From Rhizobium sp. Q54 (GTDB lineage: Bacteria > Pseudomonadota > Alphaproteobacteria > Rhizobiales > Xanthobacteraceae), in NCBI GenBank assembly GCA_945861895.1, contig CAMAWF010000016.1, positions 1 through 52,541 of the forward strand: a stretch of DNA of 52,541 nucleotides, in the 5' to 3' direction. This document shows positions 523 through 27,356 of the stretch, piece after piece. The translations under genes and the position numbers were made by a program. The number at the start of each line of letters is the position of its first letter. Positions within the stretch are counted from its first letter, which is position 1. The notes under the pieces are model-generated. The model was not told the DNA's origin, did no database searches, and saw nothing but the letters and a program-made list of their open reading frames with translations.

Positions 523-539
523 AAATACATCATGTATTT
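523..539. promoter_or_regulatory. operator site 1 of the island regulator (ATAC-N5-GTAT)
   Basis: AAATACATCATGTATTT is a perfect palindrome (8-bp arms around a single C). Its core, AATAC-N5-GTATT at 524-538, is shared with four other sites in this window, all in front of catabolic genes. It lies 32 bp before the acyl-CoA synthetase start at 571, and an imperfect TTGCCA (513-518) with TATTTT (535-540) suggests it covers the -10 region. Assignment to the GntR protein at 15492 is inference. Confidence 0.7.
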
Positions 540-570
540 TAATGGCGCGCATGCACGCCTGCGAGGTGCT

Positions 571-2463
571 ATGAACCTGACCGGCAATTCCTTTTCTGAA
601 TTACAAGCAGCCCTGCAGCAGCTTCGGGACCGCTCGATTCCGCAGCTTGTTGCGGAGCGCGTGGAGCAGGACCCGGACAGCATTGCGGTCCGATACAAGC
701 GCGGCGGGGTTTTTCGCGAACTGACATGGAGTGCCTATCGGCAGGAAATCCGACAAGTCGCCGCCGGGTTGCTTCAATGCGGGTTGGAGCCGGAGGCGCG
801 TATTGCGATCATGGGCGATGTCTGCATTGAGTATTTGCTGACTGATCTCGCGGCGACCTTTATCGGCGCCATCCCATGCGGCATTTATCCCACCAGTTCA
901 CCGGAAGAAGTCGCATATGTATTGCGACTTGCTGGCGCACGAACCTTTGTTGCCGAAGACCAGGAACATCTGGATAGGCTTCTAGACGCCGAGGCAAAAG
1001 AGAATTCGCCTCTCGTCGACAAGATCATCCTCTGCGACGAACGCGCCTTGTTTCTGTATGACGACCCGCGAATTGAACTGTTCAGTTCAATCGTGGAAAA
1101 AGGCCGCAAGAATCCCCAATCGCTGACTAAAGTTGTCGAATTGGAAGGCAAAGTCACTTCGGATTGTGTCAGTGCGATCATCTTCACGTCTGGCACGACC
1201 GGTTTTCCGAAGGCCGCATACCGAACGCAAAGCTCCGACATCATCGGGTTTGGGTACAGCTTCCTCGAAGTCATACCGGAAATGCGTGTGCGGTCGCACC
1301 GCGTTGTCTGTCAACTGCCGTTAGCCCACGGAATGGGGCGCGCGATTGCAATCTATGCGCCGCTGATCGCGAACATCATCCCGCATATTGGCGAGCCAAA
1401 TCAAAGCCTAGTTTCGCTGATGAACGAGATTCGCCCGACATACGCCATGGGGGTGCCTCGTACATGGGAAAAAATCGTCGCTCATGTGCAAGTCGCGGTC
1501 GATAGCGCAGGTTTTTTTTCACGGACCGCATTTGCGCTGGCGACTTCGGTTGGGCGCAAGCGCGTCCGCCATATTTGGGCCCATGGCGCCGCTCCCTGGT
1601 ATCTCGAAGCGGTCTATTGGCCATTATGGCTCACCGTCATATGGCCGGCACTGCACAAGCTCGGGATGACCTACGTCAACGGAGCCTGCTCCGGCGGCGC
1701 CCCTTTGGCTCCTGTCGTGCACGAGACGCTGGAGGCATGGGGCGTTCCAATGCGCGACATGTTCGGAATGACCGAAACCGGCGGCATCGGCGCGCAGGTT
1801 GGGAAATGGCCGGAGCCGGGTTCCGCGATAAAGCCGATGGCGGCCTCTCACGTGCGCCTCTCAGAGGACGGCGAATTGTGTTTGCGAAGTCCCGGCAATG
1901 TTATCGGCTATTGGAACGACGAAGCGGCAAGCGAAGCGTTGTTCGACTCCGAAGGCTATTTGCGTTCGGGCGATATCGCGATAGTCCTCGAAGATGGCGC
2001 ATTCCGGATTGTCGACCGTAAAAAAGATATTCTGATTACGAGTGGCGGGAAAAATATCGCCCCAGCCGCAGTTGAAAACGCGCTGCGCTGCAGCCCATAC
2101 ATCAGCGAAATCATCGTATTCGGCGATCAACGGAAATATGTGAGCGCATTGATTGAGATCGACTTCGAAAACGTCTCGCAATGGGCTCGCCAGCAACAGA
2201 TTCCCTACACGGGTTACATGAGCCTTTCGCAGAACGAACGGGTCATAGATCTCATCGCGAGGGAAGTTGCGGAACTCAACCAGCGTTTGGCGCGCGTTGA
2301 GCAGGTCAAGAAATTCCGGATTCTTCCAAAAGAGCTCGTTCCGGAGGACGGCGATACGACGCCGACCCGCAAGATTAAACGATCGCATGCCTACAAGCTT
2401 TTTGGCGAGCTGGTTGAGGGAATGTACGCCAAAGACAGTCTGCCGGAAGTCATCAATGTCTAG
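571..2463 (+). CDS. AMP-binding long-chain acyl-CoA synthetase-like ligase
   Basis: A 630-residue ANL-superfamily adenylate-forming enzyme that would activate a carboxylic acid with ATP and CoA. The ATP-binding loop FTSGTTGFPK lies near residue 207, the aromatic-glycine motif GMTETGG near 400, the SGD hinge region near 467 and the C-terminal lysine motif SGGKN near 490. The length fits the FadD15/long-chain acyl-CoA synthetase branch (about 600 residues) rather than short-chain forms. An in-frame ATG at 532 lies inside the operator palindrome, so the ATG at 571 with GAGG at 563-566 is preferred. It leads the operon with the livKHMFG importer, which suggests that the imported compound or an early product is a carboxylic acid. 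The acid is unknown. Confidence 0.9.
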   Translation: MNLTGNSFSELQAALQQLRDRSIPQLVAERVEQDPDSIAVRYKRGGVFRELTWSAYRQEIRQVAAGLLQCGLEPEARIAIMGDVCIEYLLTDLAATFIGAIPCGIYPTSSPEEVAYVLRLAGARTFVAEDQEHLDRLLDAEAKENSPLVDKIILCDERALFLYDDPRIELFSSIVEKGRKNPQSLTKVVELEGKVTSDCVSAIIFTSGTTGFPKAAYRTQSSDIIGFGYSFLEVIPEMRVRSHRVVCQLPLAHGMGRAIAIYAPLIANIIPHIGEPNQSLVSLMNEIRPTYAMGVPRTWEKIVAHVQVAVDSAGFFSRTAFALATSVGRKRVRHIWAHGAAPWYLEAVYWPLWLTVIWPALHKLGMTYVNGACSGGAPLAPVVHETLEAWGVPMRDMFGMTETGGIGAQVGKWPEPGSAIKPMAASHVRLSEDGELCLRSPGNVIGYWNDEAASEALFDSEGYLRSGDIAIVLEDGAFRIVDRKKDILITSGGKNIAPAAVENALRCSPYISEIIVFGDQRKYVSALIEIDFENVSQWARQQQIPYTGYMSLSQNERVIDLIAREVAELNQRLARVEQVKKFRILPKELVPEDGDTTPTRKIKRSHAYKLFGELVEGMYAKDSLPEVINV

Positions 2464-2487
2464 TCAGTGCAAAATCGGGAGTAAATC

Positions 2488-3690
2488 ATGACACGGAATT
2501 ACGGTTCAGCCGTGGCGTCAGCTGCGGTACTTGCTGCCTTCGTGCTTTCGCCTGCGGCGGCACAAGAGAAGGCACATAAGATTGGCTATATCGCCGACCT
2601 TTCGGGTCCCATGCAGGACAATTACGGTCCGATTGTCGAAGGCTTCGAATACTATGTGAAGGAACTCAACGCCCGCGGGGGAATCAACGGGGTTCAGGTT
2701 AAGCTTTCAGTTCGTGACGACGGCCTTGATGCGACGCGTGCGGCTTCCAATGCGGTCGAGCTGGCGACGTCCGAGGGCGTCAACAGCATCTGGGGCATGA
2801 GTGTCAGCCGTACGCATCTTGCGGTCTATCAGACGGCTGCGCGCAATAGCATTCCGGCAATCGCGATGTTCAGCGGCATCAAGGAAATATTGCCGCCAAA
2901 TCCGTTGCCGTTTGCATACTCTGCGGGTCATGTTTTCGAGATCGCCGGCGAGGTGTCCGGCAAGCTCGCGGCCAAGATGGCCAACGGCAAAGGCAAAATG
3001 ATCTGCAACAGCATTGAGGCGCCTGGCGGTGTCGCAGCATGCCAGTACACGGAAGGCGCTGCGGCCGCGGGAGGCCTGGAAACTGGAACGGTTCTCTTTC
3101 CACCGACGGTGACCGAGTTTGGCGCTATTGCTCAACGCATGATGTCAATGAACCCGACCATCGTCGTTGCGCATGCAGGCGCCGGCCAAAACGTTGGCCT
3201 TATCAAGGCTCTTCGCGGAGCCGGCTATAACGGCCCGATCCTTATGGGCGCGCACGGCCTGAATGAAACGCCGATGATCGATGCGCTCAGCGGCGTCGGC
3301 GATCTCGACAAGCTTCAGATTGTCAGCCGATTTTCTTCTCCCGACAGTTCTGGAAAAGAACTGGATGAGATTCGTGCCGTCGCCAAGAAGTACGGCAAGA
3401 AGACACCGGTATCGACAACCACCATTATGGGCTGGTCGCTGGGCAAAGTCATGGAAGCCTCGCTCACGAAGTGCGGTTATCCATGTTCCGGCGAAAAGCT
3501 CAATTCAGTGATCGAAAATATCAAGGTTGAAATGGGATCGCTCATGGGTGGTCCGATTCAATTCGCGTCGAAGGACCATTACGGAAAATCCTGGTGGCGC
3601 GTTTTCCAATACAATGCTGCCAAGAAAGGCTTCTTGCCCGTTTCGGATTGGCAGGAAGCGTCGTCTACTCCAACTTTGCGCAAGCAATAA
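2488..3690 (+). CDS. livK: ABC transporter substrate-binding protein, branched-chain amino acid type
   Basis: A 400-residue periplasmic binding protein of the Leu/Ile/Val (Peripla_BP_6) family. A signal peptide spans residues 1-25 with an AAA-Q cleavage site, and the mature protein starts with the family pattern KIGYIADLSGPM. Two Rossmann-like lobes follow to the end. GGGAG at 2477-2481 precedes the start by 6 bases, and the gene begins 24 bp after the synthetase. It delivers ligand to the LivHM permease encoded just downstream. In catabolic islands this family often binds amides, aromatic acids or N-heterocycles rather than amino acids, so the ligand is open. Confidence 0.92.
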   Translation: MTRNYGSAVASAAVLAAFVLSPAAAQEKAHKIGYIADLSGPMQDNYGPIVEGFEYYVKELNARGGINGVQVKLSVRDDGLDATRAASNAVELATSEGVNSIWGMSVSRTHLAVYQTAARNSIPAIAMFSGIKEILPPNPLPFAYSAGHVFEIAGEVSGKLAAKMANGKGKMICNSIEAPGGVAACQYTEGAAAAGGLETGTVLFPPTVTEFGAIAQRMMSMNPTIVVAHAGAGQNVGLIKALRGAGYNGPILMGAHGLNETPMIDALSGVGDLDKLQIVSRFSSPDSSGKELDEIRAVAKKYGKKTPVSTTTIMGWSLGKVMEASLTKCGYPCSGEKLNSVIENIKVEMGSLMGGPIQFASKDHYGKSWWRVFQYNAAKKGFLPVSDWQEASSTPTLRKQ

Positions 3691-3724
3691 AACTAAGGCC
3701 CCAGCCGCGCGATCGGAGGGATCA

Positions 3725-4585
3725 TTGGTAGCCTTAGTTTTGACCACCGTGGCGAGCTGGGGCATTTACGCCTTGCTCGGCATCGGGATTGTGCTCGTCT
3801 ATCGCACGAGCCGGGTTCTCAATATCGCCTCGGGTGAAATGGCCATCTTTATTGGCTATGTCGCTGCCACTTCGATCCAATACGGTCTGCCGTTTCCCGT
3901 TGCGGTCCTGTTCAGCATGGGCGCCGCAACGGTTCTCGGTTTTGTCATTTTCTGGTTCGCAATCCGGGGCGTCATGGGGGAGCCCCCGCATGTAGGGCTC
4001 ATGATCACCGTTGGCATCGCCGTCATCCTCAACGGTCTCATGATCGTCCTGTTCGGCGGCGGTATGATCGCAATCCCCGCCGGTCTTCCGGCATTCACGA
4101 CCATCGGACAAGTTCAGCTACCGACTCCGGATGTCGTGGCAACGATCGGCGCATGGTTTTCGATCGCCGTCATCGCGGTGATCTACCGGCTGACCAATCT
4201 CGGACTGCAAATGCGTGCCGTGGCCGAACGCGTCACGCTCAGCGCGCAACGCGGCCTCAATGTCGACCGAACCGTGGCGTTGAGTTGGATCGTCGGACTC
4301 TTGGCTGCCGGTCTCGCTGGAGTTCTCCACGGCGAACGTTCGTTTGTGGCGCTCTCGGCATCGGCAATTGGCATTAGTGCGCTTATTTCCTGTCTGATCG
4401 GCGGCATGGATAGCCTCAAGGGCGTGGTCATCGCCGCACTCATTGTCGCAGCAGCCGAAACCTTGACGGCGCGGTACATCGATCCGCGCTACGTATTGAT
4501 CGCGCCGGTGGCCATACTGCTGGTCATTCTCATTGTGCGGCCGTGGGGTCTGTTCGGCACCGTTGAGGAGATCAGGCGGGTATGA
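3725..4585 (+). CDS. livH: branched-chain-type ABC transporter permease LivH
   Basis: A 286-residue integral membrane permease with about eight hydrophobic segments and the family pattern SRVLNIASGEMA near the N-terminus. The frame is open further upstream, but that part overlaps livK and is not membrane-like. A TTG at 3725 preceded by GGAGGG at 3715-3720 gives a typical LivH N-terminus (VALVLTTVASWGIYALLGIG), so this rare start is chosen. It pairs with LivM to form the channel of the importer. Its stop overlaps the livM start (ATGA at 4582-4585), which indicates translational coupling. Confidence 0.88.
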   Translation: MVALVLTTVASWGIYALLGIGIVLVYRTSRVLNIASGEMAIFIGYVAATSIQYGLPFPVAVLFSMGAATVLGFVIFWFAIRGVMGEPPHVGLMITVGIAVILNGLMIVLFGGGMIAIPAGLPAFTTIGQVQLPTPDVVATIGAWFSIAVIAVIYRLTNLGLQMRAVAERVTLSAQRGLNVDRTVALSWIVGLLAAGLAGVLHGERSFVALSASAIGISALISCLIGGMDSLKGVVIAALIVAAAETLTARYIDPRYVLIAPVAILLVILIVRPWGLFGTVEEIRRV

Positions 4586-5667
4586 GTATCAACATGAATA
4601 CGCAGCGCATTCCATCGTCATTACCGACCAGCAGGGGTCGGACGATCGCTTTGCGTCGCGGTCGTGCGCAATGGCTGACCGTATTGCTCGGTGCCTTGGC
4701 ATTGCTGCTGCTGCCGGGTGTGGCTTCGGTGTTCTGGGTGCATCTTGCAAATGTCAGCCTGATCGCCGTTATCGCCGCGGTGGCGCTCAATATCCTGACG
4801 GGAAACGCGCGCCTGGTGTCCCTTGGACAAGCTGCATTCCTTGGCATTGGTGCTTTTACTGCGGGGATCCTGCAACGGGCCTATGACGTGCCGTTTCCCG
4901 TCGCGCTTGCGGCGGCTGCTGTCGCCGGCGGCATCGCTGGCTTTTTCATTGCTCTGCTATCGCTTCGGCTCCGCGTGCTCTACGTGGCGGTGACCACTTT
5001 GGTTCTACATTTCACGGTCACGACGATCTTTTCGTTTGTGCAGGCCGTTTTTCTCGATTCGTCGGGCATTATCCTGCCGCTTCCGAGTCTCGGCATCTTG
5101 ATATTGAAGACGCCAACGCAATGGTATTATTTCCTTGTTGTGGTCGCAGCGATCGTCGTTCTCGGCGCGCTAAATTTGTTGCGCAGCTTTATTGGACGCC
5201 GCTGGACCGCCGTTGGTGAACACGACCTGGCCGCCGAAGCACTCGGCGTTCCAGTTGCAAAGGCAAAGCTCTCCGTATTTGCGGTCACCTCCGCGGTGGT
5301 GGCGTTCGCCGGCGCGCTTTCCGCCTACTATGTCGGCACCTTTTCGTTCGAGACGTACAATTTGGGTCTTGCCATCGCTTATTTGGCAATGATCATCGTC
5401 GGAGGCGTCGGCTCGGTTCTTGGTTCCGTGCTTGGCGCTGTGTTCATCACTTTGTTGCCACACGTGCTCGATCAGATGTTCTTGCTTCTTGATCTAAAAA
5501 TACGCGCCAATGTACTGGCCGGCATACATCAGATCACGTTTGGCGCAATGATTGTCGGTTTCCTGCTGTTCGAGCCGCGTGGACTGGCCGAATTGTGGCG
5601 GCGCTTCAGCGCGGCCGCCGCCGATTGGCCTTTCCGCTATCGCAGCGTCGATCGAGGTAACCGATGA
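4582..5667 (+). CDS. livM: branched-chain-type ABC transporter permease LivM
   Basis: A 361-residue permease with a hydrophilic N-terminus of about 30 residues followed by some nine membrane segments. The LivM hallmarks ALNILTGNARLVSLGQAAF and AYLAMIIVGGVGS are visible. It overlaps livH by 4 bp and livF by 4 bp, so the importer subunits are translationally coupled. With LivH it forms the inner-membrane channel for whatever LivK binds. Confidence 0.92.
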   Translation: MSINMNTQRIPSSLPTSRGRTIALRRGRAQWLTVLLGALALLLLPGVASVFWVHLANVSLIAVIAAVALNILTGNARLVSLGQAAFLGIGAFTAGILQRAYDVPFPVALAAAAVAGGIAGFFIALLSLRLRVLYVAVTTLVLHFTVTTIFSFVQAVFLDSSGIILPLPSLGILILKTPTQWYYFLVVVAAIVVLGALNLLRSFIGRRWTAVGEHDLAAEALGVPVAKAKLSVFAVTSAVVAFAGALSAYYVGTFSFETYNLGLAIAYLAMIIVGGVGSVLGSVLGAVFITLLPHVLDQMFLLLDLKIRANVLAGIHQITFGAMIVGFLLFEPRGLAELWRRFSAAAADWPFRYRSVDRGNR

Positions 5668-6479
5668 CCGCACTTTTGGAGGTTGAGGGCCTGGAAGTTG
5701 TCTATGGGCATGTGATTCGGGCAATCCAGGGCATCTCGTTCTCGGTTGGTGAGGGCAAGATCGTCGGTCTTGTCGGCCTCAATGGCGCCGGAAAAACCAC
5801 GACGGTCCGGGCAATTTCCGGTTTTCTGCCGACGGAAAACGTTCGCATCACCGACGGCCGCATTCGTTTCGCGGGGCAATCGATTGCCAGATTACGCCCC
5901 TACCAAGCCGCACGGCTCGGCATCGCATTTGTTCCCGAACGAGACAAGGTATTTGACACGCTGACGGTGCGCGAAAATCTTGAGGTGGCCTTGACCGCCA
6001 CGACGTTGCGCGGCGATGAGCCCGGGCGGTGCCGAAGATATCGTTCAATCAAAGACATCCTCGACCTGTTTGAGGCGCTTGCGCGCCGCGCCGATCAGCT
6101 TTCAGTTTTTTTGTCGGGAGGCGAACGGCAAATGCTTGCCATCGGCGCCTGTCTACTGACCGCTCCACGGCTACTGATTGTCGATGAGGCTTCTCTCGGC
6201 CTTGCACCGATCATGCGCCGCCAGGTTCTCGATATGTTGGCGCAACTTAATCGCGAATTTGGACTAACTGTTCTGATCGTGGATCAGGACGTTGGCGGAG
6301 TGCTCTCGATCGCGGATCACGGCTATATCCTTGAAAACGGACGCGTGGTCTTCGCCGGTTCGCGCGAGCATCTCTTGCAGCACGGAGACGTCAAGGAATT
6401 CTATCTAGGCCAAAAGGAAGACCGCGAGCGCGGATATCGCGACGTCAAGCAATATCGCCGCGTCCGCCGGTGGCATTAG
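5664..6479 (+). CDS. livF: branched-chain-type ABC transporter ATPase LivF
   Basis: A 271-residue ATPase subunit. Walker A GLNGAGKTT lies at 38-46, the signature LSGGERQ near 151, and Walker B LLIVDEAS near 171, followed by the switch region at VDQDVGG, where the usual His after the D-loop is replaced by Asp-Val. The order within the operon is livF before livG, and livF overlaps livM by 4 bp. It energises import with LivG. The loss of the canonical switch histidine (usually EQN or EHD followed by a conserved residue) is common in LivF proteins and is not taken as inactivation. Confidence 0.9.
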   Translation: MTALLEVEGLEVVYGHVIRAIQGISFSVGEGKIVGLVGLNGAGKTTTVRAISGFLPTENVRITDGRIRFAGQSIARLRPYQAARLGIAFVPERDKVFDTLTVRENLEVALTATTLRGDEPGRCRRYRSIKDILDLFEALARRADQLSVFLSGGERQMLAIGACLLTAPRLLIVDEASLGLAPIMRRQVLDMLAQLNREFGLTVLIVDQDVGGVLSIADHGYILENGRVVFAGSREHLLQHGDVKEFYLGQKEDRERGYRDVKQYRRVRRWH

Positions 6480-6482
6480 GCA

Positions 6483-7289
6483 ATGGATTGTATTCTCGAA
6501 ATCGAAGATCTATCGTTGAGTTTCGGAGGGTTGCAGGTCCTGCGGAACGTGCGACTTGATGTTCTGCGCGGTAAGGTAACGGCGCTGATCGGGCCGAATG
6601 GGGCCGGAAAGACCGCGCTGCTCAATTGCGTGAGCGGAATCTATGCTCCACAGGCGGGCCAAATTTCTTTTGACGGCGATAATATAATCGGGTGGTCGCC
6701 CGAACGGGTAGCGCGCGCCGGCGTCGCGCGTAGCTTTCAAAACCTTGAGCTGTTTCCATCTCTGTCCGTTCTCGAAAATCTGCTGGTTGCGCGCGATCAG
6801 CATTTTCGTGGAACGGCCCTGGGCGCGGCAATCTTTTTCGGTCCCGCGCGTCGCCGCGAGTTGTTAGAGCGCGAGAAAGTGGAGCGTGTCATCGATTTTT
6901 TCGAGCTTTGGCCGCTACGCCATGTGCGCGCGCATGATCTACCCTATGGTCAGCAGAAGATTGTAGGTTTCGCGCGCGCGATGGCGGCCGATCCGAAACT
7001 GCTTCTCTTGGACGAGCCGGGCAGCGGCCTGACACGGGATGAAAAGGAAGACCTTGCCCGTTTCATTCTGCGTCTTCGATTTGACTGGGAGGTTTCGATT
7101 CTGTGGATCGAGCATGATTTACAGATGGTGAGCGATCTTGCCGATCGTGTGCATGTTCTGAATGCCGGTGAATGCATTGCCAGCGGAACACCGAACGAAG
7201 TTAAGCAAGTGCCGGCAGTTATCAGCGCGTATGTTGGCGATGAGGCGATCGCGGTCCCGCCGAAAAAGTCGCATGCCGCGGCAATTTGA
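6483..7289 (+). CDS. livG: branched-chain-type ABC transporter ATPase LivG
   Basis: A 268-residue ATPase with Walker A GPNGAGKT at 37-44, the degenerate LivG signature PYGQQK near 155, Walker B LLLLDEP near 173 and a canonical switch IEHDLQMV. The N-terminal pattern LSLSFGGLQVL, in which the second strand has FGG, is a LivG marker that separates it from LivF. It starts 3 bp after livF and is the last gene of the acyl-CoA synthetase/importer operon; the next gene is convergent, beginning on the opposite strand 16 bp away. Confidence 0.92.
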   Translation: MDCILEIEDLSLSFGGLQVLRNVRLDVLRGKVTALIGPNGAGKTALLNCVSGIYAPQAGQISFDGDNIIGWSPERVARAGVARSFQNLELFPSLSVLENLLVARDQHFRGTALGAAIFFGPARRRELLEREKVERVIDFFELWPLRHVRAHDLPYGQQKIVGFARAMAADPKLLLLDEPGSGLTRDEKEDLARFILRLRFDWEVSILWIEHDLQMVSDLADRVHVLNAGECIASGTPNEVKQVPAVISAYVGDEAIAVPPKKSHAAAI

Positions 7290-7305
7290 GCGGCCGATTA
7301 GAAAT

Positions 7306-14118: not shown

Positions 14119-14127
14119 TCGCCTGTC

Positions 14128-15396: not shown

Positions 15397-15405
15397 ATGC
15401 TATAT

Positions 15406-15420
15406 TATACACAGAGTATA
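15406..15420. promoter_or_regulatory. operator site 2 (soxB / gntR divergent promoter)
   Basis: TATACACAGAGTATA is an inverted repeat TATAC-N5-GTATA with the same arms and spacing as the other four sites. It sits in the 95-bp gap between divergent soxB and the GntR gene, so it could control both and make the regulator autoregulatory. Assignment to that regulator is inference. Confidence 0.72.
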
Positions 15421-15491
15421 TTATGAGGAACGCGTTTTCAAATGGCATCCATGGACTTGGATGCCTGACACGCGGGTGATAGGGAGCATCC

Positions 15492-17254: not shown

Positions 17255-17256
17255 GA

Positions 17257-18951: not shown

Positions 18952-21008
18952 GATTTGATCCGAACCAAAAGATTCATGACGTTATCCACCGTAAGGTGGT
19001 CTTTCGGGTAAAGAACAGTCGTTGAATCGAATTGATCGATGATGGCGGGCCCAGTGATCGTTTGACCTCGTTGAAGTTCCGCACGATCGTATATCGGGGT
19101 CTTTACCGGCCGAGTTTGGGCAAACCAAACGGGTCGATATCCGGCCGGCTTTGGCCGAGATGAGTTCCTTCTGCCCGGCTTGGTATGGCTGAGTGTTGTT
19201 ATCGCCGCGCTTGCAGTCAGACGGACATTGATTACCTCAACAGGATCGGACTCGTTGTGGAAACCATAATATTGATCGTGGACCGCGAAGAAGCTGGATC
19301 GCAGCTCTTCGATTTGGCCGATCTGCGGAAGTTTTCCGCCAGCAGAAACTCCGACTGGTACCGATAACTCGAAATTCTGCCCGACGTAGCGCATATCGAA
19401 TGAAACGGTCACCTTGCGATTGGCAGCGCTAATGGCTTCGCGTTCGAACCACGCGTTTGCATCCTTCTTGAGGCTTTCAAAAATCTGCCGAAGCGCCGGC
19501 AGCGCCTTTGCTTCCAGCTTGATTCGTGCGGAGCGAACGATGTCATCCTTCAAATCGGAAGCAATAAGGCCTTGTGCACAGAGAATGCCGGGTGCCACGG
19601 GAACAATGAACCGGGAGATGCCAAGCGCGCGAGCGACCTCGGCTGCGTGAAGCGGTCCGGCCCCGCCGAAGGGCAGAAGGCAGTATTTGCGCGGATCGTG
19701 ACCGCGTTCCACGGAGACGGTGCGGATCGCCCGGACCATATTGGCGACGACGATTTCTAAGATGCCTTGCGCCGTCCGCTCGATCGAAAAGCCCAAACGC
19801 TCGGCAATCGGCGCCATGACTGCGCGAGAGGCTTTCGTATCCAATGGCATCCGGCCGCCAATCAAACCTTTGTCAGACAACCGGCCAAGGACGAGATTGG
19901 CATCGGTAACGGTTGCATCCGTTCCGCCCCTGCCATAGCAAGCCGGCCCCGGATCTGCTCCTGCGCTTAACGGGCCAACCTTGAGCAATCCGTCAAGGTC
20001 GAACCAGGCAATCGATCCACCGCCCGCGCCGACAGTATGGATATCCAGCATCGGCAGGCGAATGGGAAAACCAGCAACCGTGCGGTCGAAGCCCAGCCCC
20101 GCCTCATAATCCCGTATCAGGGCGACGTCAGCGCTGGTTCCGCCCATATCAAGCGTGATGATGTCCGGTTCTTTCGACGATCGGGCGCTGTGAATTCCAC
20201 CCACGGCGCCGGCGGCCGGGCCGGATAGCGCTGTGCGGACCGGATAGCGGCGCGCTGTATCGATCGACATAAGGCCGCCGCTGCTTTGGTAGATACCGAC
20301 CTTGGCACCTGCGGCTTCCGTGGCCAGTCTATCCTCCAGGTACGAAAGGTAGCGGTCCATGACAGGTTGGAGGTAAGCGTTCAATACCGCAGTCGAGAAG
20401 CGTTCGTATTCACGGAATTCCGGCTGCACTCCGGAGGACAACGAGATCATCAACCCGTTATTTTTTTGTTTGAGCGCCTCACCGACACGACGTTCATGTG
20501 AATCGTCGAGGAACGAGAACAACAAACATACGGCGCAGGATTCCGCACCGGAGGCTTTTACCGCCGCCACGGCCTTCTGCAGCGACACCTCATCGAGCGG
20601 GGTGAGTACGATTGGTCCGGCCGTTATCCGCTCGTCGATTTCAAAGACGCGGTGGCGGGGGACCACCGGCTGCGGATGATCAAGCTGAAGCGAGTATAGA
20701 TGGGGTCGCGTTTGGCGGCCGATCTCCAATAAATCCCGAAACCCGCGCGTAGTGATAACGGCGACGCTTGCGCCCTTACGCTGAATAAGCGTGTTGGTCG
20801 CGACAGTTGTGCCGTGGCAAAGTCTTTCGATGGACTTAGCGTCGATCCCGCACGAATTGCACATTTCGAGCAAACCATCGACGATCGCAGCCGCCGGATT
20901 GTGGGGAGTCGATGGGGTTTTGAACAAACGAACGACTTGCGTTCGTGCGTCATACGCAAAGAAGTCAGTAAATGTACCGCCGACATCGACGCCTACCAGC
21001 CAAGGCAT
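18948..21008 (-). CDS. hyuA: hydantoinase A / oxoprolinase alpha-type subunit
   Basis: A 686-residue ATP-binding subunit of the ASKHA fold. The N-terminal phosphate loop VGVDVGGTFTDFFAYD, the motif CHGTTVATNTLIQRKG near 66, DMGGTSADVALI in the second nucleotide-binding half and the FGGAGPLHA segment are all canonical. It couples ATP hydrolysis to cyclic amide cleavage with HyuB. Operator site 3 lies 24 bp upstream of the ATG, and the operon continues to hyuB and an alpha/beta hydrolase. Characterised relatives act on hydantoins, oxoproline, N-methylpyrrolidone and oxindole-acetate, so the family does not define the ring. Confidence 0.93.
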   Translation of the reverse strand: MPWLVGVDVGGTFTDFFAYDARTQVVRLFKTPSTPHNPAAAIVDGLLEMCNSCGIDAKSIERLCHGTTVATNTLIQRKGASVAVITTRGFRDLLEIGRQTRPHLYSLQLDHPQPVVPRHRVFEIDERITAGPIVLTPLDEVSLQKAVAAVKASGAESCAVCLLFSFLDDSHERRVGEALKQKNNGLMISLSSGVQPEFREYERFSTAVLNAYLQPVMDRYLSYLEDRLATEAAGAKVGIYQSSGGLMSIDTARRYPVRTALSGPAAGAVGGIHSARSSKEPDIITLDMGGTSADVALIRDYEAGLGFDRTVAGFPIRLPMLDIHTVGAGGGSIAWFDLDGLLKVGPLSAGADPGPACYGRGGTDATVTDANLVLGRLSDKGLIGGRMPLDTKASRAVMAPIAERLGFSIERTAQGILEIVVANMVRAIRTVSVERGHDPRKYCLLPFGGAGPLHAAEVARALGISRFIVPVAPGILCAQGLIASDLKDDIVRSARIKLEAKALPALRQIFESLKKDANAWFEREAISAANRKVTVSFDMRYVGQNFELSVPVGVSAGGKLPQIGQIEELRSSFFAVHDQYYGFHNESDPVEVINVRLTASAAITTLSHTKPGRRNSSRPKPAGYRPVWFAQTRPVKTPIYDRAELQRGQTITGPAIIDQFDSTTVLYPKDHLTVDNVMNLLVRIKS

Positions 21009-21031
21009 GGTTGATATTCCGGATTGCAGTT

Positions 21032-21048
21032 TTATACATCGCGTATAA
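21032..21048. promoter_or_regulatory. operator site 3 (hyuA promoter)
   Basis: TTATACATCGCGTATAA is a 17-bp inverted repeat with 6-bp perfect arms and a 5-bp centre, matching the other island sites. It lies 24 bp upstream of hyuA, in a divergent region that also holds site 4, about 113 bp away. Confidence 0.72.
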
Positions 21049-21145
21049 TAATAGATTGCCGGAAGCGCTGTGATGGGTCAAGAGTGTGTTCTAGCTGCAT
21101 TTGCAGCCTCTTGAGACGGTCGTTAGGACCGGCTAAAGGCCTTTT

Positions 21146-21160
21146 GATACATGCTGTATA
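21146..21160. promoter_or_regulatory. operator site 4 (second CoxL-CoxG promoter)
   Basis: GATACATGCTGTATA has the ATAC-N5-GTAT core with T/A-rich flanks (TTT before, AAA after). Its centre contains an in-frame ATG at 21151, which argues against that ATG as the real start of the downstream gene and for a start at 21166 or later. Confidence 0.68.
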
Positions 21161-21165
21161 AAAAC

Positions 21166-24156
21166 ATGCAATCCACCGATTCCGAAGCCGGAGTGGCACA
21201 GCGGCCGCGGCAAAATTACGTGGGTCAGCGGGTGCTCCGGGTGGAAAACCCGCCGCTCCTTAGAGGGCACGGCCTTTTCATCGACGATATGCCGGTCAAG
21301 GCCGGAACCTTGCATGCGGCAATCCTCCGCTCGCCACATGCGCACGCCGAAATTCTCTCTATCGATGTCACGGACGCAATTTCGCTACCCGGTGTACGCG
21401 CTGTCGTGACTGGCCAAGACGTTGCGGCGATGACCGATCCGCTCATCGTTGGGTTTGCGACCCCGATGCGGTACCACGGAATCGCAGTGGACCGGGTTCG
21501 CTACGTCGGTGAGCCGGTGGCGATCGTCTGCGCCAGCGACCGTTATTTGGCCGAAGACGCTCTCGATCACATCCGTGTCGAATATCGGCCGCTACCTGCA
21601 GTGGTCGATCCCATTGCAGCGGCGGCGTCCGATGCTCCCATTCTTCATCCCGCAGTTGGCTCTAACGTCGTCTCTTATCGGGAGTTCCGGCACGGAGAAA
21701 CCGACAAAGCCTTCGCCGAAGCAAAACGGCGCAGCGAGATCGTAATAACATACCCCCGCAATTCAATTACTCCGATCGAAGGATACGCAGTTGTTGCGGA
21801 GCATCTGCTCGATAGTGGCGGCTATGATGTGATCTCGAATTTCCAGGGACCGTTCTCGCTGCATCCGGTGATGGCGCGAGCGCTCCGAATTCCTGGGAAC
21901 CGCTTGCGTCACCGCAGTCCGCCGAATTCCGGCGGCAGTTTTGGATCAAAACTGGCGCTATTCCCTTACATCGTCATTCTGTGCATAGCATCGCGGCTTG
22001 CCGGGCGGCCAGTCAAATGGATCGAGGATCGTCTTGAGCATCTCGCCGCCGCAAGTGCCGCACCCAACCGAGTGACGCGGATCGAGGCCGCCTATGATGA
22101 TGACGGTATCGTCAGCGCATTGCGACTGAAACACTGGGATGACCATGGTGCCTATCTGCGCGCGCCGATGCCCGCTCCGATCTATCGGATGCATGGGCTC
22201 TCAACCAACGCCTATGGCATCAAGCACGTTGATGTCTTCAACCACATCCTGGTAACAAATAAATGTCCGACCGGTGCGGTGCGTGGCTTTGGCGGACCTC
22301 AACTCTATTTTGCCGTCGAACGGATGATGCATACAATTGCGGGCGAGCTGAAGCTTGATCCGCTCGAACTTATTCGCCGCAACCTCATTCCGGCGGGATC
22401 ATTCCCTTACCGTGCGCCGGCCGGCGCATTGATCGATTCTGGCGACTATCAACGTTTGATCGACGAAACCGTCAGCGGCGGCGGGCTTGATGAATTGCGC
22501 CAGCGCCGCGATACCGCGCGGCGACAGGGCAAGTTGTATGGAATTGGGTTCGCCGTGGTTGTCGAACCGAGCCAGTCCAACATGGGCTATATCTCGACGT
22601 TGAAAACCGGGATTGAGCGGGAACGGTCGGGACAAAAGGATGGGGCGGTGGCCGCCGCGACCGTTTCAATGGATCCCCTCGGCACAGTCAGCGTGGTTGC
22701 GGATTCCGTGCCGCAGGGCCAGGGCCATCAAACCGCACTCGCCCAAATCGTTGCCGACCAGCTCGGCGTTAAAATCGAGGACGTGGTCGTCAATCTGGAG
22801 ATCGACACGCAAAAGGATGGATGGTCGATTGCAGCCGGCAACTATTCTTGCCGTTTCGCCCCAGCCGTCGCCAGCGCGACGCATCTTGCCGCCGTACGTT
22901 TGCGCGAAAAGCTTGCACGTATCGCTGCGTCATCGCTCAACGTGCCGCCGGACAACGTCGAGTTTGCGGATCGCAAGGTTTTTGCGCGCGATAACGCCGA
23001 AAATTGGCTCAGTCTTCATCGCGTGGCGGGGCAAGCGCATTGGTCGCCCGCAAGCTTACCCGATGGAATGGCGCCCGCATTGCGCGAAAGCGTCACGTGG
23101 AGCGCTCCAGAACTTACCCCGACGTCCGCGCGTGACGAGATCAATACCTCTCTGGCTTATGGCTTCGGCTTCGACTTCTGCGGCATCGAAATCGCCCGCG
23201 AAACGGGCGAGATTCGTATCGATAAATACGTTACCAGTCACGACTGCGGCACGATCCTCAATCCGGGCCTCGCTGACGGTCAAATCCACGGCTCGTTCGC
23301 TGCGGCGATAGGCGCGTCGCTTTACGAAGAATTTTCCTATGGCGAAGACGGGAGCTTTTTGTCCGGCACCTTCGCCGATTATCTGGTCGCCACGGCGGCA
23401 GAAATGCCGAAGCTCGACATTCTGCATCCGGTGCAGTCGCCTTCGCCATTTACCAGGCTTGGAGCAAAAGGGATCGCCGAAGGAAATCAGTACAGCACGC
23501 CGGTTTGTCTCGCCAATGCGGTCGCTGACGCGCTCGGGCGCGGGGATATCACTGTGCCGCTAAAGCCCGCGAAGATTCTGGAATGGATTTCTGGCGACGA
23601 AGCTAAAAGCCGCTCCGTCGCTGCGAAGGCCTCGCCGAAAGGCTCCAGTATCAACGGAGAGGGCCTCGCTTATGTCGCGGGCGATCCGCAGACAGTCTGG
23701 TCCGCCCTGTTGAATGAAAACGGTTTACGTGCAGCCATTCCGGGATGCGAGCGCCTTGAACGCGTCGGCGAAAATGCCTTCAAGGCGACGGTTACTTTGG
23801 GCGTCGGGCCGGTCAAGGGAAGCTTCAAGGCCGATATCGGTCTCTCTGATCTCGATGAACCGCGGTCCGCCGTCCTCAAAGGAGTGCTATCCGGATTGCT
23901 CGGCACTGCATCCGGGACGGGTCTATTGACGCTTGTCCCGCAGAATGGCGGTTGCCGCATCGACTATCGATACGAAATCCATCTTTCAGGCCAGGCGGCG
24001 ATGGTCGGAGGCCGCATGGTCAATGCCGCCGCGCGTCGTCTGATCAACGAATTCTTCCTCCGCTTTGCTGCCTCTCTTGGCGAAGTGAATAGAGCCGGGA
24101 CCTCACTTCCATCCTGGCGCGCCCGAATCAAGAGCTTGTTTGGAGCACAGCAATGA
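21166..24156 (+). CDS. molybdenum hydroxylase large subunit fused to a CoxG domain (copy 2)
   Basis: A 996-residue paralogue of the protein at 7306-10257, easily aligned along its length. It has the hammerhead domain (QRVLRVENPPLLRGHG), the active-site loop PTGAVRGFGGPQ and GAKGIAEGN with the expected catalytic glutamate. Residues about 826-996 form the SRPBCC/CoxG domain. The start is uncertain: ATG 21151 is inside an operator, ATG 21166 is preferred, and GTG 21193 would match the length of the paralogue. No strong ribosome-binding site is seen. Its FAD and [2Fe-2S] partners follow at once, so this copy has a complete enzyme. The loop is unlike CO dehydrogenase; a heterocycle hydroxylase is more likely. 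Confidence 0.88.
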   Translation: MQSTDSEAGVAQRPRQNYVGQRVLRVENPPLLRGHGLFIDDMPVKAGTLHAAILRSPHAHAEILSIDVTDAISLPGVRAVVTGQDVAAMTDPLIVGFATPMRYHGIAVDRVRYVGEPVAIVCASDRYLAEDALDHIRVEYRPLPAVVDPIAAAASDAPILHPAVGSNVVSYREFRHGETDKAFAEAKRRSEIVITYPRNSITPIEGYAVVAEHLLDSGGYDVISNFQGPFSLHPVMARALRIPGNRLRHRSPPNSGGSFGSKLALFPYIVILCIASRLAGRPVKWIEDRLEHLAAASAAPNRVTRIEAAYDDDGIVSALRLKHWDDHGAYLRAPMPAPIYRMHGLSTNAYGIKHVDVFNHILVTNKCPTGAVRGFGGPQLYFAVERMMHTIAGELKLDPLELIRRNLIPAGSFPYRAPAGALIDSGDYQRLIDETVSGGGLDELRQRRDTARRQGKLYGIGFAVVVEPSQSNMGYISTLKTGIERERSGQKDGAVAAATVSMDPLGTVSVVADSVPQGQGHQTALAQIVADQLGVKIEDVVVNLEIDTQKDGWSIAAGNYSCRFAPAVASATHLAAVRLREKLARIAASSLNVPPDNVEFADRKVFARDNAENWLSLHRVAGQAHWSPASLPDGMAPALRESVTWSAPELTPTSARDEINTSLAYGFGFDFCGIEIARETGEIRIDKYVTSHDCGTILNPGLADGQIHGSFAAAIGASLYEEFSYGEDGSFLSGTFADYLVATAAEMPKLDILHPVQSPSPFTRLGAKGIAEGNQYSTPVCLANAVADALGRGDITVPLKPAKILEWISGDEAKSRSVAAKASPKGSSINGEGLAYVAGDPQTVWSALLNENGLRAAIPGCERLERVGENAFKATVTLGVGPVKGSFKADIGLSDLDEPRSAVLKGVLSGLLGTASGTGLLTLVPQNGGCRIDYRYEIHLSGQAAMVGGRMVNAAARRLINEFFLRFAASLGEVNRAGTSLPSWRARIKSLFGAQQ

Positions 24157-24980
24157 AGCCCGCAAATTTCGACTATGCCCGCTGTGAAAGGGTCGAGAGC
24201 GCTCTTGATCTACTCGCTGAGCACGGCGATGACGCACGCATCATCGCGGGCGGACAGTCGCTTATGGCGATGCTGAACATGCGGCTCGTGCGACCGTCGA
24301 TCGTCGTCGATATCGCCTCACTAGACGAGCTTGCGTATGTGAAAGAAGCCGCAGGCTACGTCGAGTTTGGCGCCACAGTCACGCAGGCTGCTGCCGAAGC
24401 ATGGCCGGCTCTGCGCAAGCGCGTTCCGCTTGTGGCGGCAGCGCTTCCTCACATCGGCCATTTTCAAACGCGCAACCGCGGAACAATCTGCGGTTCGCTC
24501 TGTCATGCCGATCCCAGTTCCGAATTGCCGCTCTGCCTTGCCACCTTAGGTGGAGACGTGGTCCTTCGATCTCGCCGAAAAAAACGTGTTGTTGGTGCTC
24601 TGGATTTTCAAATCGGCCTGTTGTCGACGGCCAAGCAGCCCGACGAGATGATGGTGGCAGCTCGCTACCCGGCGGCTCGCTCCGGCTGGGGCTATGCGTT
24701 TCGAGAAATATCCCGCCGCCATGGTGACTTTGCCATCGTCGCGCTAGCCGCTGTGGTCGGTGACGGAAAAATCCGACTTGGCGTTGGTGGGGTTGATGAC
24801 AAGCCGGCGGTCCATGAATGGGACGATATGGATGACGATAGCCTGGCTGATGCGCTCAACGACTTTGCTTGGGATCTCGGTGGCGGCGACGACATCCACG
24901 CGACGGCGCGGTATCGGCGCGAGATGGTTCGGCGATTGGGAAAGAAAGTAATCGGGGAGGCGCGGCAATGCAGGTCCTGA
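24153..24980 (+). CDS. molybdenum hydroxylase FAD-binding (CoxM-like) subunit
   Basis: A 275-residue medium subunit of the xanthine dehydrogenase family. The FAD pyrophosphate-binding motifs ARIIAGGQSLMAMLN near residue 30 and TRNRGTICGSLCHADPSSELP near 107 are typical, in slightly altered form. It overlaps the large-subunit gene by 4 bp and the iron-sulfur gene by 13 bp. It passes electrons from the [2Fe-2S] subunit to an acceptor, perhaps a quinone. It may also serve the large subunit at 7306, which lacks partners of its own. Confidence 0.9.
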   Translation: MKPANFDYARCERVESALDLLAEHGDDARIIAGGQSLMAMLNMRLVRPSIVVDIASLDELAYVKEAAGYVEFGATVTQAAAEAWPALRKRVPLVAAALPHIGHFQTRNRGTICGSLCHADPSSELPLCLATLGGDVVLRSRRKKRVVGALDFQIGLLSTAKQPDEMMVAARYPAARSGWGYAFREISRRHGDFAIVALAAVVGDGKIRLGVGGVDDKPAVHEWDDMDDDSLADALNDFAWDLGGGDDIHATARYRREMVRRLGKKVIGEARQCRS

Positions 24981-25477
24981 AGCAAAGCGAGCGGCATCGC
25001 GTTCGCTTCACGCTCAATGGCGAACGGGTTGAAGGGTTGGCCGAACCGCGCATGCTTTTGACCGATTTTATCCGGCACGAGATCGGGGCAACTGGCACTC
25101 ACGTCGGCTGCGAGCACGGCATTTGCGGCGCATGCACCATTCGCGTCAATGGAAAGGCGGTGCGTGCCTGTTTGATGCTCGCGGTGCAGGCCGAAGGCAA
25201 AGAGATCGAGACGGTGGAAGGGTTGGCTGCAAAGGACGGTACCTTGTCGGCGCTACAAGCCGCTTTTCATCGCAACTTCGCCCTGCAGTGCGGCTATTGC
25301 ACACCCGGATTCCTCATGAGCCTCGTAGACTACCTGGAGAAAAATCCAAATCCGACAGAAGCCGATATTCGTATCGCCCTGAGCGGCAACCTTTGCCGCT
25401 GTACGGGCTATGCCGAAATCGTCAATGCCGCTCTGGAGGCGGCCCGCGAAATACAGGCGTTATCAGCGTCGAAATAG
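24968..25477 (+). CDS. molybdenum hydroxylase [2Fe-2S] (CoxS-like) subunit
   Basis: A 169-residue small subunit. The plant-type cluster site reads CEHGICGAC with a further Cys downstream (VRAC), and the second cluster site has CGYCTPG and LCRCTGY. These eight cysteines are the complete set for two [2Fe-2S] clusters. The ATG at 24968 follows GGGGAGG at 24954-24960 and lies inside the end of the FAD-subunit gene. The frame is open further upstream, but that part is antisense-like and out of family. It relays electrons from the molybdenum site to FAD. Confidence 0.93.
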   Translation: MQVLKQSERHRVRFTLNGERVEGLAEPRMLLTDFIRHEIGATGTHVGCEHGICGACTIRVNGKAVRACLMLAVQAEGKEIETVEGLAAKDGTLSALQAAFHRNFALQCGYCTPGFLMSLVDYLEKNPNPTEADIRIALSGNLCRCTGYAEIVNAALEAAREIQALSASK

Positions 25478-25488
25478 GAGGCGAGAAG

Positions 25489-26481
25489 ATGCGTGCCCTT
25501 GTTGTCCACGAATTCGGACCGATCAATTCACATCAAATTGAAGACGCTCCGGATCCCAAAATCGGTGACCGCGACGTTCTCATCGATGTAAAGGCGATCG
25601 GACTCAACTATCCCGATACACTCATGTTGCAGGGCAAGTATCAAACGCGTCCCGATCGGCCATTTATTCCCGGCCGTGATGCCGCAGGCATCGTTCTTGC
25701 GATTGGCTCGAACGTCAAGCGAGTGAAGGTAGGTGACCGCGTTAACGCACAGGTTGCGGCCGGCGCTTTCGCTGAAAAACTTGCCGCGCCGGAAGGGCGT
25801 TGTTTTCGCATGCCTGACCGGATGGATTTTCCGACCGGCGCGGGGATGGTTACGATTTATAATACAGCCTACGTAGCAGTTGTAATTCGGGGTCAAATAA
25901 AGCGTGGCGAAACAGTTCTCGTGACCGGAGCTTCCGGCGGCGTCGGTCTTGCAGCCGTCCAGATAGCGAAGGCCAAAGGCGCTCGCGTCCTGGCCGGCGT
26001 AACATCGAAGGATAAAGGCGCAGTCGCTCTTGCCAGCGGCGCGGAGGCCTTGATCGATCTGACTGCGGCGGATCTTAAGGAAAGCCTTCGCGAGCAGGTA
26101 TTTGCGTTGACCAATAATCGCGGCGTCGATGCCGTAATCGATCCGGTCGGGGGCGATGTATTTGACGCGGCCCTGCGGGCGGTCGGATATGCCGGCCGCA
26201 TGATCATCGTCGGATTTGCGTCCGGTCGTATCCCGGAAGTGAAGGGCCACTACATTCTATTGAAGAATATCTCCATCATCGGCGCCCCGCTTGATATTCA
26301 CTTCAAGATGCAGCCGGACGTCATGGATGCGGCGGTAGCGGATTTGTTCAAAATGTTCGAGAACGGACAGATCAAACCGGAAATCATGGCGACCTACCCG
26401 CTGGAACAGATTCACAAAGCAATGGATGTTATCCTCAGCCGCCAGGTAAAGGGTAAGATCGTGCTGTTGACGGGTACATAA
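25489..26481 (+). CDS. NADPH:quinone oxidoreductase, zinc-free MDR family
   Basis: A 330-residue medium-chain dehydrogenase/reductase. It has the N-terminal GroES-like fold with FIPGRDAAGIV, the nucleotide-binding segment VTGASGGVGLAAVQIAKAKG, and NRGVDAVIDPVGG. No structural or catalytic zinc cysteine sets are visible, which places it with quinone oxidoreductases or enoyl reductases. AGGAGG at 25476-25481 sets the start at 25489. It follows the molybdenum hydroxylase subunits by 11 bp, so it may reduce an unsaturated CoA or quinone intermediate, or recycle the electron acceptor. The convergent next gene ends 12 bp downstream. Confidence 0.88.
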   Translation: MRALVVHEFGPINSHQIEDAPDPKIGDRDVLIDVKAIGLNYPDTLMLQGKYQTRPDRPFIPGRDAAGIVLAIGSNVKRVKVGDRVNAQVAAGAFAEKLAAPEGRCFRMPDRMDFPTGAGMVTIYNTAYVAVVIRGQIKRGETVLVTGASGGVGLAAVQIAKAKGARVLAGVTSKDKGAVALASGAEALIDLTAADLKESLREQVFALTNNRGVDAVIDPVGGDVFDAALRAVGYAGRMIIVGFASGRIPEVKGHYILLKNISIIGAPLDIHFKMQPDVMDAAVADLFKMFENGQIKPEIMATYPLEQIHKAMDVILSRQVKGKIVLLTGT

Positions 26482-26492
26482 CTGCCGGACGG

Positions 26493-27299
26493 CTACATCA
26501 GATCGATCATCAAAGGATTATTGCGCTTGCCGCGTTTGAAGGCGCCGAGGCGCTCGGCTGCATACGGATTATCGAGCGATTTGAGAATATTCTGACATTC
26601 ATATTCGGTGCATTCCTCCAGCGAGCGGCGCCAGCCTTCATGGAATGTCTCTTTAACGTAAGCCTGCAAGTGCGTGGGCCCATCGGCGAGCTGGCGCGCA
26701 ATTTTAGAGACATTGGCCGCAAAATCTTCGTTCTTGTACATCCGGTTACAAATTTGCCATTCGACAGCCTCGGCCGCTGTGAGCGTGCGGTTGGTCAGCA
26801 TCAGTTCCATCGCGCGCCGGAAGCCAACGATCTTAGTCAGCGAGTAGCTTGAGCCGCCGTCGTTGGCCACGCCATTCGCCATCCACGAGGCGAAGAAGCT
26901 GGCTTTTTCGTTGCAAACTGCAATGTCGCTCGCGAGTACCAACCCAAGCCCACCGCCGACCGCGATTCCGTTGACCGCGCACAAAACCGGCTTTTGAATT
27001 CGAACCATGCGATGCAGCATTTGATGCCACCACATCGCAACTTCACGGAAACCGGCTCGCAGTTCCTCCCGATTGTCGAGGCTGTAGCCTTTCAGATTAA
27101 CACCGGCGCAAAATGCGTCACCGGCACCGGTGAGAACGACGACGCCGACATCGTTACGATCCTCACACGTCCCGAACGCGGTAAAGAGTTCGGACAGGGC
27201 CTCGACGTCGAGCGAATTTTTGACTTCCGGCCGGTTGAACGTGATCGTCGCTATGCCATCGGTTATATCGAGGATGATGGGCTTGGTGTCACTCATCAC
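26493..27299 (-). CDS. enoyl-CoA hydratase/isomerase family protein (PaaG-like)
   Basis: A 268-residue crotonase-fold protein. The oxyanion-hole motif GAGDAFCAGVNLKGYS and the second segment GIAVGGGLGLVLASD are clear. The position of the second hydratase glutamate reads VANDGGSSYSLTKIVG, resembling PaaG-type isomerases, which lack that residue and use an aspartate. It may therefore isomerise a double bond, or act on an unusual CoA thioester, and not simply add water. AAAGGA lies 7 bases before the ATG. It is divergent from the glutathione transferase gene, sharing operator site 5. Confidence 0.85.
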   Translation of the reverse strand: MMSDTKPIILDITDGIATITFNRPEVKNSLDVEALSELFTAFGTCEDRNDVGVVVLTGAGDAFCAGVNLKGYSLDNREELRAGFREVAMWWHQMLHRMVRIQKPVLCAVNGIAVGGGLGLVLASDIAVCNEKASFFASWMANGVANDGGSSYSLTKIVGFRRAMELMLTNRTLTAAEAVEWQICNRMYKNEDFAANVSKIARQLADGPTHLQAYVKETFHEGWRRSLEECTEYECQNILKSLDNPYAAERLGAFKRGKRNNPLMIDLM

Positions 27300-27341
27300 A
27301 CTGCATCCTTTGTTGTTGCGCCCGAGCAGCGGGTGTTATTT

Positions 27342-27356
27342 AATACTCTGTGTATT
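27342..27356. promoter_or_regulatory. operator site 5 (enoyl-CoA hydratase / GST divergent promoter)
   Basis: AATACTCTGTGTATT is an inverted repeat with the same arms and 5-bp spacing as the other sites. It lies in the 112-bp gap between the two divergent genes and is the right-most copy seen. Confidence 0.7.

Follow-up and report, generated by a model that had tools for sequence, protein, structure and literature searches.

Regulators of the FadR (FCD) group within the GntR family typically bind operators of the consensus NyGTM-N0-1-KACNy, in which GT and AC lie 2 or 3 nt apart, with a centre that is usually conserved and a variable periphery (PMC4494728). Examples are the operators of Atu1419, ATGTATACAT (PMC7797058), and of AlkR, ATTGTCAGACAAT (PMC12042122). 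Departures from the GT..AC pattern are described for the FCD proteins NanR and BioR and the HutC proteins FarR and NagQ, which use direct repeats or other palindromes, and none of the exceptions named there is ATAC-N5-GTAT (PMC4494728). An inverted repeat with that spacing, CATAC-N5-GTATG, is bound by DitR, a repressor of mfsBC efflux in Stenotrophomonas maltophilia that belongs to the unrelated TetR family (PMC9342713). Here we analyze a 52,541-base stretch of DNA from Rhizobium sp. Q54 (contig CAMAWF010000016.1; hereafter the window), of which positions 1 to 28,200 form an island of ~28 kb that probably breaks down a nitrogen-ring compound. The island encodes one GntR/FCD protein and carries five copies of the palindrome ATAC-N5-GTAT. 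We propose, with a probability of about 0.85, that these palindromes serve as operators for the island-encoded GntR/FCD protein, which would act as a local, autoregulated repressor. Genomes, contigs, and loci are referred to below by our own labels (G, C, and L numbers).

A pattern search for exact ATAC-N5-GTAT confirmed the five palindromes that a sequence-only reading of this DNA had listed, and found no others in the window. Candidate operator 1 (TAAATACATCATGTATTTT, 525-537) lies 5' of the acs-liv operon, operator 2 (ATTATACACAGAGTATATT, 15407-15419) between soxB and gntR, operator 3 (TTTATACATCGCGTATAAT, 21034-21046) in the hyuA/coxLG2 divergon at a position kept in relatives, operator 4 (TTGATACATGCTGTATAAA, 21147-21159) at the coxLG2 start, and operator 5 (TTAATACTCTGTGTATTTT, 27343-27355) between ech and gst; none was assigned a strand. 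Shuffled versions of the window contained a mean of 0.18 copies and a maximum of 2, and at least five copies occurred in none of 100 shuffles. The whole genome (3,767,078 bases in 194 contigs) has 16 exact cores, five in the island and 11 elsewhere. The density outside the island predicts 0.08 copies per 28.2 kb (for the five observed, Poisson P is 3e-8). When outer A/T flanks were required (WWNATACN5GTATNWW, no mismatch), six copies were left in the genome, five of them in the island and the sixth on contig C3; of the cores outside the island, the remaining 10 failed the flank test. Ten of the 11 non-island cores overlap a mechanically called open reading frame (ORF) of at least 100 aa, an overlap of little weight at 61% GC, and the A/T flanks separate the copies better. 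The sole A/T-flanked copy outside the island (G000:C3:8302-8314; L048:1803) is ~100 bp upstream of an ORF that, judged by eye, looks like hfq.

Gene families were assigned by Pfam and NCBIfam scans, which gave seven transcription units: acs with five transporter genes (+), soxB-D-A-G with the first CoxL-CoxG gene (-), gntR (+), hyuA-hyuB-hydrolase (-), the second CoxL-CoxG gene with FAD and FeS subunits and mdr (+), ech (-), and gst (+). Three divergent promoter regions serve six of these units and site 1 serves acs-liv. Since the other junctions are convergent or intra-operon, four intergenic regions hold all unit starts, and each has a site, so that coverage of all seven units, as claimed in the sequence-only reading, stands. 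Its placement of the sites in intergenic start regions is likewise borne out: all five fall within the 1,084 non-coding bases of the island, a tally that uses gene bounds set by us, with the acs, soxB, and coxLG2 starts shifted to inner ATGs and the livH, coxLG1, coxS, and mdr starts estimated. Site 1 overlaps the first ATG (532) of the acyl-CoA synthetase ORF, and the likelier start is the in-frame ATG at 571, 33 bp downstream of the site; site 4 overlaps the first ATG (21151) of the second CoxL-CoxG ORF, which has an in-frame ATG at 21166. With the inner starts adopted, the distance from site to gene is 25-56 bp for acs, soxB, hyuA, ech, and gst and 72 bp for gntR, and coxLG2 has one site 119 bp and another 6 bp upstream of its probable start. 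Sites 3 and 4 are spaced 113 bp apart, and, as a conjecture by analogy with Atu1419 (PMC7797058), a tetrameric FCD repressor might loop across this distance. A reading of the palindromes as terminators was dropped because the stem is A/T-rich.

The scan of island ORFs, with the FeS-subunit ORF outside it, found one regulator only, as had been claimed: the GntR/FCD protein (15492-16319, + strand, 275 aa). It has a GntR winged-helix domain (PF00392, E 8.8e-18, residues 50-110) and an FCD domain (PF07729, E 5.7e-20, residues 120-250). Its winged helix contains R84-T85-P86-R88, all four invariant across nine regulators, and by spacing R84, T85, and R88 equate in our mapping with Arg45-Thr46-Arg49 of Atu1419. 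A putative metal site, N171-H175-H227-H249, is present, with N171, H175, and H227 invariant in the nine; we take D/N-x3-H, H, H to be the ligand pattern of FCD metal sites. An AT-hook-like GRPKG stands near the N terminus (residues 42-46), and GRP[K/R]G occurs in nine of nine core regulators and in none of 35 other homologues examined. Two regulators that lack it, those of L066 and L083, likewise have sites with A/T at every flank position, which shows that such flanks do not depend on the arm.

Orthologues of the regulator were identified in a search of 297 genomes of the order (G038, G079, G144, and G114 at 51-57% identity, G061 at only 42%) and among 25 other genomes with CoxLG relatives from a 385-genome sample of the class (G303, G361, and G360 at 51-53%). 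G499, with a partial 42% match only, was counted as lacking an orthologue, and the orthologue-bearing genomes number nine with the window's own included. In the relatives the core consists of a CoA ligase gene divergent from gntR and of hyuA(-hyuB-hydrolase) divergent from coxLG2-M-S(-mdr), with several neighborhoods split across contigs and that of G061 rearranged. The strict pattern WWWATACN5GTATWWW, searched in 12 genomes (nine with the orthologue, three without), had 17 copies, all in the nine, and the reversed pattern had one. Sixteen of the 17 are at regulon start regions, four of them from the window, where site 4 fails this stricter pattern; 11 were already known from the window and fetched loci, and five of the six new ones, the two at mdr/hyuAB in G061 among them, proved to be regulon starts. 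Strict copies lie at hyuA/coxLG2 in G079, G303, G361, G360, G038, G144, and G114, before coxLG2 in G061, at gntR/CoA-ligase in G038 and G144, and twice at mdr/hyuA in G061. One-mismatch A/T-flanked sites were found in the gntR/CoA-ligase region of G079, G114, and G303. The alignments place the relatives' sites roughly 50 to 160 bp ahead of the CoxLG start, and in their hyuA/coxLG2 divergons a second site that would correspond to operator 4 was not seen. G061 has a pair of exact A/T-flanked palindromes, separated by 87 bp, between mdr and a hyuAB-like fused frame of 1203 aa (L063:1896-6671), which on its sequence we regard as a second, diverged regulon member.

Presence of the site followed presence of the regulator. 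Among 26 genomes of the class sample with a CoxLG relative, a site was at the cluster in four of four with a GntR orthologue and in none of 22 without one, although in seven of these 22 the match spans the CoxL part only and not CoxG. G480, G573, and G650, from the genus of the site-bearing G361, have no orthologue and no strict copy, and all three retain coxLG-M-S-mdr (with hyuAB in G573 and G650 and the ligase in G650). A second run over 25 genomes, 19 with a CoxLG relative and six with GntR homologues of 38-42%, found strict copies in G399 only, four against four for the reversed control and none near its CoxLG genes. Twelve core loci (167 kb), chosen by their genes and not by presence of the site, contain 10 A/T-flanked sites with zero or one mismatch, every one at regulon starts; 25 comparison loci (440 kb) contain a single A/T-flanked site, inside the coxS region of G664. 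Four further loci that were fetched for a site add five. The motif is thus far from equally common at unrelated promoters, and the sequence-only proposal of one regulon under GntR gains support from these comparisons and from the regulator tree described below.

A phylum-wide profile search of 398 genomes found no additional core orthologue. Of the 19 genomes with matches, one is that of the window and the other 18 have more distant homologues; four of these homologues (L073, L078, L083, and L088) belong to the outer portion of the branch that bears sites. A single-protein GntR search of named genomes returned only two remote loci, and no close DNA relative of window positions 1-25000 was found among plasmids.

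A tree was built from 43 GntR homologues. All 14 site-linked proteins fall in a single branch of 17 rows (support 100/99), and none is among the other 26 rows. The labels follow mixed standards, nine core rows being assigned by a site at the cluster and five outer rows by an exact core before their own gene; by the 400 bp before gntR alone, seven of the nine core rows qualify. The outer site-linked members are L066 (Salipiger abyssi), L083, L099 (Ponticoccus alexandrii), L078, and L088, with mixed flanks in L078 and L088, and L066, L099, L083, and L078 are beside hyuA. Sites were found in the gntR/hyuA intergenic regions of plasmids pPABY1 of S. abyssi and p-SCP3 of P. alexandrii. The 400 bp before the gene held no exact site and no one-mismatch A/T-flanked site in any of the other 26 rows. 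No exact copy was present in the HyuAB loci L100, L102, L103, and L104 (no GntR annotated within 3 kb), L101 (unannotated), and L067 (GntR 2.3 kb away), or in the hmf-like clusters L044-L047, which have other regulators.

A matrix of 20 sites (five from the window and 15 from relatives, three of the latter with one mismatch), read as palindromes, gives TTWATAC-A-NNN-T-GTATWAA. The ATA/TAT positions carry full information, C/G carries 1.6 bits, the inner A/T 0.8, the centre ~0, and each nearest A/T flank position ~1, the flank value being partly circular because eight of the 15 relatives' sites were chosen by their A/T flanks. Seven exact cluster sites found without a flank filter each have six of six flank positions A/T, as do four of the five window sites. 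The protein and its sites share much with FCD regulators of the Atu1419, AlkR, and LldR/PdhR type: the winged helix with its contact residues, the FCD domain with putative metal ligands, palindromes that lie at promoters as well as at the regulator gene itself, and single sites that serve divergons. In contrast, the half-sites here are everted (ATACA-N3-TGTAT versus TGT-N2/3-ACA), it is the A/T flanks and not the centre that are conserved, opposite to the common pattern, and the core group has an AT-hook-like N-terminal arm. If the protein reads these everted half-sites, each winged helix might approach its half-site from the side opposite to that used by FadR, Atu1419, and AlkR. Everted half-sites with a conserved periphery, despite the usual contact residues, are the real oddity of this finding, and the reversal relative to the published consensus bears on whether an FCD dimer can dock in two ways. 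No such regulon emerged from literature searches, with subscription journals mostly outside them, on the motif, HyuAB combined with GntR/FCD palindromes, routes for pyrrole-2-carboxylate, or FCD regulators with an AT-hook.

In the mechanism that we favor, a GntR dimer would occupy TTWATACA-N3-TGTATWAA just upstream of or at each operon start and block RNA polymerase until a pathway intermediate binds the FCD domain and frees the protein from its site, with the consequence that all seven units and gntR would be induced together. Four parts of this scheme are inferred: that GntR binds, that it represses instead of activating, the nature of the effector, and the existence of a single pathway. In five of the seven units the highest-ranked promoter-like element overlaps the site, in one it abuts the site, and none was found for gst; these are weak consensus matches, which tempers the argument for repression. 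GntR might instead bind the sites as an activator, or repress some units and activate others, as the variable distances (6 to 119 bp here and the spread before the relatives' CoxLG genes) could suggest. We consider this unlikely, given the promoter overlap, such as it is, the position of most sites 25-56 bp ahead of start codons, and the fact that FCD relatives with sites over the -10 element, Atu1419 (PMC7797058) and AlkR (PMC12042122), are described as repressors.

Assignment of the sites to this protein is also open to dispute, since the sole match to the motif in the literature covered was the TetR-type operator of DitR (PMC9342713), and the consensus of the 20 sites, ATACA-N3-TGTAT, departs from the GT-N2/3-AC pattern that is typical, although not required, of FCD operators (PMC4494728). 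Both points would suit another regulator, perhaps a TetR-family repressor, whose gene lies elsewhere and which has gntR as merely one of its targets. That such a protein is responsible seems improbable to us, less probable still than activation by GntR, since the sites track the GntR orthologue and not the cluster (G480, G573, and G650 keep coxLG-M-S and lack both gntR and site), follow the GntR tree, and occur at gntR/hyuA in Roseobacteraceae plasmids where the remaining cluster differs; moreover, a partial scan of neighboring ORFs in L017, L026, L032, and L059 revealed no other regulator that recurs. Chance, or a general A/T-rich promoter element, would draw on the A/T-richness of promoters and on the 11 further cores in the genome. 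We give it almost no credence, because A/T-flanked copies are nearly absent elsewhere and in regulator-less genomes, the reversed-pattern control is close to zero (G399, where copies equal the control, is the exception), and both whole-genome pattern runs (12 and 25 genomes) contradict it.

Several further observations count against operators of the island's own GntR/FCD protein or against parts of that proposal. Three rows of the site-bearing branch, L010, L073, and L064, have no exact site (L064 has a one-mismatch site), and L010 lacks one even with its gntR divergent to hyuA. The gntR/ligase region is without a site in G361 and has no more than a weak one in G360. An A/T-flanked copy near a contig end in G038 (C226:9320), in L059 and outside the locus counts above, has no known link to the regulon, and its neighbor (L059:8673-9197) has no Pfam match. 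Exact cores with G/C flanks occur off regulon starts in the core loci (L018:3314 and L032:15490). Finally, sites at the sox, acs-liv, and ech/gst units occur in this genome only.

The claim that the regulon amounts to one pathway is supported only in part. The regulon shared with relatives comprises the CoA ligase and gntR, hyuAB(-abh), and coxLG-M-S(-mdr), and the pathway link of sox, liv, ech, and gst rests on one genome. The conserved core (CoA ligase, CoxLG-M-S, and HyuAB) likely resembles 2-furoate catabolism recast for an N-heteroaromatic acid, as far as the sequences indicate. The substrate, an N-heteroaromatic and perhaps N-methylated carboxylate, would be activated with CoA and hydroxylated next to the nitrogen by CoxLG-M-S, and HyuAB would open the lactam in an ATP-dependent step in place of HmfE; in this organism, the SoxBDAG-like enzyme would remove an N-methyl group. 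Neither CoxLG protein has the AYxCSFR loop, which we take to be the active-site loop of CO dehydrogenase, and on this sequence evidence CoxLG appears not to be a CO dehydrogenase. CoxLG is 51-55% identical to relatives in the 25 plasmid records listed, whose clusters encode CoxLG, FAD and FeS subunits, a CoA ligase, an enoyl-CoA hydratase-like protein, and a transporter, with UbiD/UbiX in two of the four viewed. This arrangement is that described for 2-furoate catabolism (PMC6678421), and likeness to hmf was judged on the gene order of these plasmid clusters, with the characterized HMF14 sequences outside the comparison. On this basis, the island and hmfABCDE would have in common a transporter, a CoA ligase, and a CoxL-CoxG fusion accompanied by FAD and FeS subunits; the island differs in having HyuAB, a GntR protein in place of AraC/LysR regulators, and a different CoA ligase. 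An HmfE-like protein and UbiD/UbiX were not among the island ORFs scanned. At a cutoff of 1e-12, acs had no tblastn match in L044-L047, and ech matched the enoyl-CoA hydratase of L047 at 24% with no match in L044-L046; the relatives' ligase is 25-27% identical to the ligases of L044 and L046.

Of the solved chains, HyuA matches best one that bears the name N-methylhydantoinase (E 3e-158). NCBIfam cutoffs were missed for CapA and CapB (563.6 and 295.2 versus 1000), as were those of all four sarcosine oxidase subunits (bits/cutoff for SoxB, D, A, and G of 498.8/529.45, 52.6/116.5, 876.8/1164, and 36.6/143.95), which leaves the Sox-like proteins as relatives of that enzyme and makes sarcosine unsafe as the substrate. 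Homarine was considered since it is served by Mgd-type demethylases, and it stays a lead (citation in PMC13390433). The SoxBDAG-like operon was the only one found in the genome (SoxB search, E 1e-30). Sox genes adjoin hyuAB also on a Pseudosulfitobacter plasmid: L100:1-6709 (P. pseudonitzschiae pSMR1-3) has sarcosine-oxidase-type genes, hyuAB, and a LysR regulator and no exact palindrome, so the HyuAB-Sox pairing recurs there under another regulator. We tentatively suggest, at somewhat short of even odds, a broader scheme in which FCD GntR regulators of one clade, linked to HyuAB genes, read everted ATACA-N3-TGTAT with canonical recognition-helix residues, the GRP[K/R]G arm grips the A/T flanks in the core group, and the regulon is an undescribed nitrogen counterpart of 2-furoate catabolism. 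The compact regulon with its sharp signature links poorly characterized CoxL-CoxG fusions, HyuAB, and CoA ligases, and the signature can be used to seek further members in other genomes.

From the left, and by family scan unless noted, the island encodes on the + strand the acyl-CoA synthetase acs (AMP-binding, PF00501; 571-2463, ORF from 532) and a branched-chain-amino-acid-type ABC transporter with a binding protein, two permeases, and two ATPases (2488-7289). The - strand carries the sox operon, namely the soxB-like gene (14128-15396, probable start near 15372), the soxD-like gene (13831-14127, below cutoff), the soxA-like gene (10952-13834), the soxG-like gene (10254-10955, TIGR01375, below cutoff), and, closing the operon, CoxL-CoxG fusion 1 (7306-10356), a molybdopterin hydroxylase large subunit joined to CoxG whose true start is probably downstream of the first codon. 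This fusion is 58% identical to fusion 2; its operon lacks genes for FAD and FeS subunits, and it may use those encoded with fusion 2. Beyond gntR, the - strand encodes a HyuA-type (18948-21008) and a HyuB-type (17257-18951) hydantoinase/oxoprolinase and an alpha/beta hydrolase (16316-17254). On the + strand follow CoxL-CoxG fusion 2 (coxLG2, 21151-24156, probable start 21166), the CoxM-type FAD subunit (24153-24980), the CoxS-type 2Fe-2S subunit ORF (24869-25477, start probably downstream of the ORF start), and the zinc-type alcohol dehydrogenase/quinone oxidoreductase mdr (25123-26481, domains beginning at ORF residue 148). The coxS ORF itself was outside the family scan and was assigned by its place behind coxM, where relatives have a gene annotated as a (2Fe-2S)-binding protein. 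The enoyl-CoA hydratase/isomerase family gene ech (26493-27299, - strand) and the glutathione S-transferase gene gst (27412-28167, + strand) complete the island.

Elsewhere in the draft assembly, window positions 1-149 have six copies of 99-100% identity, of which five lie at a contig's first base and one is on C175, and nine further copies of 75% identity. The stretch probably belongs to the end of an insertion element that is present in multiple copies, interrupts the assembly, and marks the left island border. G+C content is 57.3% in 1-28200 and 61.6% in 28201-52541, with an average of 61.1% in 11 other stretches of the genome, and the lower island value is consistent with acquisition by transfer. 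To the right of the island are MFS and polysaccharide synthesis genes.

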